24,728 nucleotides of DNA from a virus. The stretch is from the IMG/VR virus record IMGVR_UViG_3300042470_000708, positions 1 through 24,728 of that record. One strand, given 5' to 3'. Below are positions 2,633 through 4,011 of the stretch, piece by piece. The notes under the pieces were generated by a model. The model had not been told where the DNA came from and ran no database searches. It was given only the letters and a program-made list of their open reading frames with translations. Position numbers and translations under genes: made by a program. The stretch's first letter is position 1. Each line of letters opens with the position of its first letter.

Positions 2633-2668
2633 TTTACTCGGGTATTCTGAATGAGAATGATTATCATT
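2633..2668 (+). promoter_or_regulatory. Upstream rightward promoter P1 overlapped by a Fur-box-like palindrome
   Basis: TTTACT (2633-2638), 17 bases, then AATGAT (2656-2661) form a moderate sigma70 promoter (4 of 6 matches at each box). The -10 is the left half of a perfect 13-base palindrome AATGAT-T-ATCATT (2656-2668). With its flank this matches the 19-base Fur-box consensus at 14 positions by my alignment. The block TTTACTCGGG is repeated at 2708, so P1 and P2 look like a duplicated promoter. Whether Fur or a phage repressor binds is unknown. Confidence 0.5.
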
Positions 2669-2707: not shown

Positions 2708-2736
2708 TTTACTCGGGATTCCGACTCTGTTACATT
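2708..2736 (+). promoter_or_regulatory. Rightward promoter P2 with TGTTACA in the -10 region
   Basis: TTTACT (2708-2713), a 17-base spacer and TACATT (2731-2736) preceded by TG give an extended -10 (TGTTACATT, 2728-2736). The 12-mer TGTTACATTATC is the same as in the leftward promoter at 2059-2070. Transcription should start near 2743, which places the hairpin at 2742-2756 at the very 5' end of the RNA. Confidence 0.6.
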
Positions 2737-2741
2737 ATCCA

Positions 2742-2787
2742 TGTTGCCTAGCAACACAGCCCGCCTAGCGGGATGCTCTTTAACAAT
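2742..2787 (+). promoter_or_regulatory. rRNA-like leader: two CTA-loop hairpins and boxA
   Basis: Two perfect hairpins follow P2: TGTTGC-CTA-GCAACA (2742-2756) and CCCGC-CTA-GCGGG (2760-2772), both with a CTA loop. One base later lies TGCTCTTTAACAAT (2774-2787), which is the boxA of enterobacterial rrn leaders, where NusB and NusE (ribosomal protein S10) bind nascent RNA to stop Rho-dependent termination. The hairpin-boxA order matches boxB-boxA. A 5'-terminal hairpin commonly slows RNA decay. The remaining leader to 2914 contains GCATATATGC (2823-2832) and a hairpin GCGCC-AAA-GGCGC (2889-2901) before the gene. Confidence 0.7.
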
Positions 2788-2914
2788 CCAGACCGGGTTA
2801 GATATTCCCTTGTCCTAGGCAAAGCATATATGCACGCCAGGTAAGGCAAGCGGAATAAATAACCTAAAGAGTCCTATCTGCAACAAATGCGCCAAAGGCG
2901 CGAGAGAGAAAACC

Positions 2915-3523
2915 ATGGCTATCAAGATTTACAGCGATGCAAAGCAAGTGGTTTGCGAAGCAAACCAGAAACTCATAACGACAAAACAAAACAACCCGAT
3001 CCGGCGCTATGCCATCGCAGTCCCCAATACTGCATGGAAAAACATCAGGGCTAACAGCCCTGAGCAATATCGGGAGATTCTCTCTGCAGTGCTGGAAACC
3101 ACAGCCAAAGGGATTCTGCTTGACTATGTGAAGGCATTCACACTGACACCGGCAGAAATCACTGAGGAATGGTTCACTGAAGAATATCTGCTTGACCGTG
3201 CACTTGGCTCCAACAGTGAATGGCTGAACAAGGAAGAACTGGAAAAGGGCTGGTTGGCCAGCGCAACACGCCACAAGCTCATTGAGAACAACCCACAGTA
3301 CAAGGAAAACACCAGCTACAGGAAGACAGCGAATGCCTTTGCAGAGATGGTTCTGAAACTCAGTGGCAAAACCACAATCCTTGAGACAAAGTATATCGAT
3401 TGGATTCTGGCAAAACTGGATGAAAACGATATGGATACTGAGTTCGGAGTATTCGTAGTTAAGAGATTGGAAACAATGAAGAATAAGCCAGTCAAAGCAG
3501 AGATTGATTTGGATATTCTGTAA
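2915..3523 (+). CDS. Unknown 202-residue protein, single-gene early unit
   Basis: I do not recognise this protein. It is predicted mostly helical, rich in Lys and Glu, without signal peptide, membrane segment or cysteine cluster, and ends in an acidic tail (EIDLDIL). The ATG at 2915 follows a GAGAGAGAAAA purine stretch. Expression features are striking: tandem promoters, a boxA leader, a GCGC hairpin just before the ribosome site similar to that of the capsid gene, and a strong terminator right after the stop. This makes it a monocistronic, probably abundant protein. Codons 12-18 contain a perfect 8-bp hairpin with GAA loop (2949-2967). An acidic C-terminus with high early expression would fit a single-strand DNA-binding or host-takeover protein, but nothing in the sequence proves either. 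Confidence 0.82.
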   Translation: MAIKIYSDAKQVVCEANQKLITTKQNNPIRRYAIAVPNTAWKNIRANSPEQYREILSAVLETTAKGILLDYVKAFTLTPAEITEEWFTEEYLLDRALGSNSEWLNKEELEKGWLASATRHKLIENNPQYKENTSYRKTANAFAEMVLKLSGKTTILETKYIDWILAKLDENDMDTEFGVFVVKRLETMKNKPVKAEIDLDIL

Positions 3524-3526
3524 CCA

Positions 3527-3559
3527 AAATAAACCCGCTGAAAGGCGGGTTTTTTATTT
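3527..3559 (+). terminator. Intrinsic terminator after the 2915 gene
   Basis: AAACCCGC (3531-3538) pairs with GCGGGTTT (3545-3552) around a TGAAAG loop. The stem can be extended by A-T pairs (AAT..ATT) and is followed by a T-run to 3555. It begins three bases after the stop codon. Confidence 0.92.
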
Positions 3560-3794: not shown

Positions 3795-4011
3795 AAAATT
3801 TTTATTCCGCTTCGCTCCATAAAAATTTTGTGCTCGCTTCGCTCGCTAAATAGAATGACAAGTGACCTTCGGTCACAGCCTACGGCTTGGCCTAACGGCC
3901 AGGCCTACGGCTTAACAGATTGACAAATGTGGTCCTTTGGACCACAGCGCGGCAGAGCCGCCAGTCAGAATTACAAATCCTGCGGACTTCTTATGTGAAA
4001 GCACGTAGTGC
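3795..4011. repeat. Cluster of back-to-back mini-hairpins, mostly with 3-base loops
   Basis: Perfect inverted repeats follow each other: AAAATTTTTAT / ATAAAAATTTT (3795-3829, 13-base loop), GTGACC-TTC-GGTCAC (3862-3876), AGCC-TAC-GGCT (3877-3887), TGGCC-TAAC-GGCCA (3888-3901), GCC-TAC-GGC (3903-3911), TGTGGTCC-TTT-GGACCACA (3928-3946), GCGGC-AGA-GCCGC (3949-3961) and GCAC-GTA-GTGC (4001-4011). GCTTCGC occurs at 3809-3815 and 3836-3842. No gene overlaps them. None has a terminator T-run. Confidence 0.75.

Follow-up and report, generated by a model that had tools for sequence, protein, structure and literature searches.

Outside the nut sites of lambdoid phages, boxA is treated as a signal of ribosomal RNA (rRNA) synthesis, with few exceptions among host messenger RNAs (mRNAs) and the arrays of clustered regularly interspaced short palindromic repeats (CRISPR). 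Its published consensus is GYTCTTTAANA (PMC5725501), and in rRNA (rrn) operons boxA is necessary and sufficient for complex formation, deletion of boxB having little effect (PMC10250234). Here we describe an exact boxA carried by the untranslated leader that precedes a gene for a 202-amino-acid (202-aa) protein of a freshwater-type bacterial virus, IMG/VR record IMGVR_UViG_3300042470_000708, whose 24,728 nucleotides (24.7 kb) are referred to as the window. Searches of open-licence papers brought up no description of a phage leader with an rrn-type boxA.

Conservation of boxA in the leader of the 202-aa gene

The two hairpins and the exact boxA that an earlier note had placed at 2742-2787 are read directly from the sequence (Table 1). 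boxA ends 127 nt upstream of the ATG start codon, on the + strand, and the 14-mer TGCTCTTTAACAAT is present as a single copy in the whole record. Taken alone, this match is only mildly unusual, GYTCTTTAANA having one match in the window where 0.15 would be expected, and 15 of 100 shuffled sequences also having one. Its significance derives from conservation in relatives. Viral contigs yielded no fewer than 20 members of the 202-aa gene family, and seven of them (the window, L002, L003, L004, L018, L066 and L067) form one clade (support 99/98), within which the first four make up the window subclade. A perfect sense-strand boxA consensus is displayed by 7/7 leaders of this clade, which is the conservation on which the earlier note had staked its proposal. 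All seven consensus matches across the seven contigs (88 kb, 0.34 expected) fall in the leader of the 202-aa gene, and in 3000 shuffled sets of seven 300-nt leaders boxA was found in one leader in 13 sets and never in more than one. Thus, chance occurrence is ruled out.

The sequences are TGCTCTTTAACAAT or GGCTCTTTAACAAC in the window subclade, GCTCTTTAAAAACC in L018 and TGTTCTTTAAAAA in L066 and L067. Protein identity between the subclades goes down to ~40-57%, and most of the leader outside boxA cannot be aligned from one subclade to another. Variable positions shift as they do in bacterial boxAs, with GCTCTTTAACA, GCTCTTTAAAA and GTTCTTTAAAA all fitting GYTCTTTAANA, and the same forms are shared by two betaproteobacterial rrn leaders (Cupriavidus GTTCTTTAACAACC, Caballeronia TGTTCTTTAAAAACT) and the phage leaders (GCTCTTTAACAACC, TGTTCTTTAAAAACG). 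These observations support a position-specific boxA that is conserved in an untranslated leader whose short transcription unit holds one gene, and the simplest reading is that it would have been fixed once in the seven-member clade and then kept by selection.

The core of boxA stands 116-163 nt before the ATG across the seven leaders, and the leaders of the window subclade share a long conserved stem between the two (GGGTTAgATATTCC... / ...GGAATAAATAACC). One strong intrinsic terminator follows the gene by 10-370 nt in all seven contigs, delimiting a unit of ~0.8-1.2 kb. With a terminator never more than 0.4 kb beyond the gene, the unit served by boxA is short, in agreement with the single short gene described previously, and the conservation of this terminator disfavours a main role in antitermination over a long operon. 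A protein-free switch for late antitermination, in which boxA-modified polymerase would partly read through the window terminator into the terminase, portal and capsid genes, finds some basis in the major downstream genes to 24.7 kb lying on the + strand with the 202-aa gene first, and in the ability of the rrn complex with SuhB to lower intrinsic termination in vitro (PMC6614801). Nonetheless, with that strong terminator kept in 7/7 members, ~0.7 kb of non-coding DNA between this unit and the next in the window, and an Escherichia coli rrn system that is mainly anti-Rho, we consider such read-through unlikely.

Table 1. Features of the window and Fur-box-like sites in related contigs.
Feature	Position	Strand	Remarks
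Helicase gene	239-1996	leftward	phrog_325
Putative promoter P1, TTTACT-17-AATGAT	2633-2661	+	within conserved ACTCGGGTATTC element (2636-2647)
Fur-box-like palindrome AATGAGAATGATTATCATT	2650-2668		overlaps P1 -10
Putative promoter P2, TTTACT-17-TACATT, extended -10 TGTTACATT	2708-2736	+	predicted start ~2743
5'-terminal stem-loop TGTTGC-CTA-GCAACA	2742-2756	+	same sequence in L004, other stem-loops in L002/L003
Stem-loop CCCGC-CTA-GCGGG, boxB-like position	2760-2772	+	one base (A2773) before boxA
boxA TGCTCTTTAACAAT	2774-2787	+	core GCTCTTTAACA at 2775-2785, exact match to GYTCTTTAANA
Structured untranslated leader, then ribosome-binding region	2788-2914	+	from alignment and folds
202-aa protein, first gene of rightward block	2915-3523	+	family of at least 20 members
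Intrinsic terminator AAACCCGCTGAAAGGCGGGTTTTTTATTTG	3531-3558	+	after 202-aa gene
Short GC-rich stem-loops	2679-2693, 2760-2772, 2889-2901, 3862-3876, 3888-3901, 3928-3946, 3949-3961
Fur-box-like sites	window 2650-2668; L005 3577; L008 1544; L009 3500; L018 447-471; L067 2663; L079 2805/2836/3650
Fur-box-like sites, further	L025 609; L026 703; L027 3616; L035 780; L037 845; L068 994

Promoters, stem-loops and the probable action of boxA

Tandem promoters had been proposed upstream of boxA, and this claim stands in part: both are plausible and P2 is kept in 3/3 close relatives (L002, L003, L004), but they are weak by consensus, each P1 hexamer matching at 4/6 positions, and neither was listed by a promoter scan at its threshold. 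The ACTCGGGTATTC element around P1 is exact in L005 and L008, has one mismatch in L066 and L067 and two in L018, and occurs at the P2 position in L009.

The proposed mimicry of a boxB-boxA rRNA leader is weak. A stem-loop 0-1 nt before boxA is confined to the four members of the window subclade, and its sequence differs among them (CCAGC-GTA-GCTGG in L004; CAGGGC-GGAA-GCCCTG in L002 and L003). L018, L066 and L067 retain boxA and show no stem-loop adjacent to it. Short perfect GC-rich stem-loops are, moreover, common in the two intergenic regions of the window (seven, against 0.41 in shuffles). Given this commonness and the lack in three members, the stem-loop is not counted as boxB; the pattern appears compatible with a spacer or cap. 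Separately, these GC-rich stem-loops may represent a small palindromic element dispersed in the phage.

Since relatives have retained boxA while nearly all of its surroundings changed, it probably functions in recruiting host factors that keep RNA polymerase going on one transcript. We propose, with a probability of about 0.6, that in this unit, which runs from a promoter through the leader and the 202-aa gene to an intrinsic terminator, it acts in cis as a loading site for NusB and S10, making polymerase Rho-resistant and processive over a structured untranslated leader of 130-165 nt. On emerging from RNA polymerase, boxA would be bound by the host NusB-S10 dimer, which together with NusA, NusG and probably SuhB would form a processive complex resisting Rho and pausing; this complex would carry polymerase across the ribosome-free leader and yield more full-length mRNA. 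The stem-loops of the window subclade would be dispensable, serving to cap the 5' end or as spacers, and initiation may in addition be controlled by iron through a Fur-like operator that covers the upstream promoter. The position of boxA on the transcribed strand, shortly 3' of a promoter, supports this proposal, and a precedent exists in Legionella, where boxA added to the leader raised CRISPR-array RNA ~10-fold (PMC7862264). Among the options offered in the earlier note, guarding the leader against Rho, or boosting expression, fits best.

The predicted distance between promoter and boxA bears on a different possibility, namely that the motif acts as DNA, as an initially transcribed region or a protein-binding site, or owes its conservation to something other than NusB-S10. 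In L018, L066 and L067 only 7-8 nt separate the putative -10 from the beginning of boxA, which overlaps the predicted start, as such a role would have it; in the window subclade, on the contrary, it lies at least 37 nt after the -10, behind inserted stem-loops, and throughout the clade sense orientation is kept and the variation matches exactly that of boxA, so that we hold a DNA role to be very improbable.

RNAfold predictions raise the further possibility of a sensor or switch, in which NusB-S10 on boxA would regulate translation, for example by breaking a pairing between boxA and the ribosome-binding region, the gene answering to free NusB-S10 as rRNA synthesis changes. boxA (CUCUUU, 2774-2787) is predicted to pair with the purine-rich ribosome-binding region (AAAGAG, ~2903-2911) in the window and in L004, with a partial pairing in L003, and regulation by boxA of suhB translation and of a ParE-like toxin gene is known in enterobacteria (PMC5725501). 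However, the pairing is not predicted in L002, L018, L066 or L067, and such pairing is open to any boxA rich in pyrimidines wherever the ribosome-binding site is rich in purines; a sensor is accordingly judged quite improbable.

The earlier note had also suggested an RNA that sequesters NusB and S10; as such a decoy, an abundant leader RNA would bind the two and lower host rRNA synthesis. Although the consensus NusB-S10 site would suit this role, as would the 5' stem-loop of the window subclade by possibly stabilising the RNA, no evidence supporting sequestration was found: each contig holds one boxA and no second copy, the RNA is a coding mRNA rather than a short stable RNA, a single mRNA could hardly titrate S10 and NusB, and the protective 5' stem-loop is not kept in L018, L066 and L067. 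A decoy is therefore highly improbable.

Several points weigh against loading of NusB-S10 in cis as proposed above: (i) boxC (GTGTGGG, at most one mismatch) is absent from the 300 nt before the ATG in 7/7 leaders; (ii) the need for protecting so short a leader from Rho is not obvious; (iii) other family members with enough upstream sequence carry the same gene and no boxA within two mismatches; and (iv) given the predicted -10, the RNAs of L018, L066 and L067 would begin almost directly with boxA.

Fur-box-like palindromes and the surroundings of the unit

In the last 280 bases before the ATG, the ACTCGGGTATTC element with P1, a Fur-box-like palindrome, P2, the two stem-loops, boxA and the structured leader follow one another in this order. 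The palindrome over P1, which is conserved, was overlooked by the earlier note. Fur boxes have been described as 9-1-9 or 9-3-9 arrangements (PMC6922518), and sites were here taken as Fur-type when they are inverted repeats with at least 14/19 matches to the Fur consensus. The window palindrome is of this type, matching 17/18 positions of AATGAGAATNATTCTCATT and, on the other strand, 15/19 of the canonical Fur box. Scores of 16/19 were obtained in L005 and L008, 14/19 in L009 and L018, and 11-13 in several other members of the phage group. Across 39 non-redundant contigs of this group (421 kb), 15 sites match AATGAGAATNATTCTCATT at 15/18 positions or better, against 0.3 in shuffles, most of them directly upstream or downstream of the 202-aa gene. 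Such palindromes border this gene in the greater part of the group. Perfect copies of AATGAGAATNATTCTCATT are also frequent in IMG/VR contigs (at least 120 matches, L093-L172); most of those examined are intergenic, and some of the contigs may include host DNA. L160 exhibits three perfect copies in tandem at 1810, 1840 and 1870 (30-bp spacing). As a separate observation, a direct repeat of GGAGATGAGAATGATT, a Fur-like half site, occurs at 3620-3680 of L072, just after the terminator of the gene.

The palindrome over P1 suggests a link of the gene to the iron state of the host. That two host signals act in series, with a Fur operator over the upstream promoter reading iron and an rrn-type boxA in the leader engaging antitermination factors, is put forward as a tentative possibility. 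Searches of open-licence papers gave no report of Fur boxes in lytic phages, the phage-linked Fur cases found being Shiga-toxin prophages.

The 202-aa protein matches no Pfam or PHROG family, and its structure model (predicted local distance difference test 83, predicted template modelling score 0.50) finds no credible counterpart in either PDB or BFVD. Weak matches of two family members to the 'Kil' PHROG (best E 4e-4) were judged unreliable. W103, K106, E108, W113 and R119 are invariant in the family, and no homologue was found among genome contigs.

The virus is a distant relative of Fredfastierviridae, its terminase large subunit (TerL) being 37-39% identical to those of Polaromonas phage Tiera and of Fredfastierviridae (Pseudomonas phage 119X and PaP2-like phages). 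A search with TerL for the host returned only a short fragment of a Paceibacterota metagenome-assembled genome at 47% identity, which is uninformative for host assignment. Leftward and rightward gene blocks are separated by ~0.9 kb of non-coding DNA, and the rightward block runs from the 202-aa gene through a 411-aa gene, the terminase small and large subunits and the portal to an SU10-type capsid protein. A search of the window for transfer RNA genes gave none. Among known phages near this group, Tiera shows no boxA at the equivalent place, and 119X, P5 and EBPR podovirus 3 have only scattered matches elsewhere. Tiera carries there an unrelated-looking 223-aa gene with its own strong promoter and terminator. 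TGTTACA/TGTAAC repeats cluster at 2191-2243 and 2494-2552 of the window, on both sides of the intergenic region, and are possible iterons or repressor sites.

Implications and comparison with known systems

The leader of this phage mRNA contains a conserved rrn-type boxA, and its action in cis is likely. Its presence throughout a clade on a short mRNA suggests that the rRNA antitermination machinery may be usable without an apparent phage antiterminator, and the locus offers a small natural system for asking what boxA does on a 0.8-kb transcript. Taken with the conserved Fur-like operators, boxA suggests that the transcription of a phage can be coupled to the iron status and growth state of its host. 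If Fur binding holds, a phage gene would answer to host iron; if both signals act in series, a conserved phage protein of no known fold would be tied to the host's iron supply and ribosome synthesis.

Lambdoid nut sites resemble this leader as phage-encoded boxAs recruiting Nus factors, but their order is boxA then boxB and they work with a phage N protein, whereas any stem-loop here is 5' of boxA. A nut site was rejected for this wrong order. No stem-loop follows boxA directly on its 3' side, and the nearest stem, a long one, begins ~8-13 nt or more downstream. No N-like gene was recognised in the record, a 24.7-kb part of the genome in which the adjacent gene has no Pfam or PHROG match.

With rrn leaders the phage leader shares an exact sense boxA shortly after promoters and, in the window subclade, a stem-loop before boxA, as in Cupriavidus, whose rrn boxA AGTTCTTTAACAACC follows a CCGGC-AAA-GCCGG stem-loop. 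It differs in having no boxC, in a stem-loop that is not clade-wide, and in belonging not to a 5-kb rRNA but to a short protein-coding mRNA closed by an intrinsic terminator. The absence of boxC and of any Rfam match in the window rules out a copy of the boxB-boxA-boxC rRNA leader.

The suhB and ParE-toxin mRNAs (Baniulyte et al. 2017) are similar in carrying boxA in the 5' untranslated region of a single-gene mRNA. Occlusion of the ribosome site as in suhB, for which boxA would have to lie within ~50 nt of the start codon, is rejected because boxA is here too far, 116-163 nt before the ATG. The leaders of CRISPR arrays, finally, are alike in that a host-type boxA raises transcription of a poorly translated RNA other than rRNA; these arrays are long and untranslated, whereas the phage unit is untranslated in its leader only.
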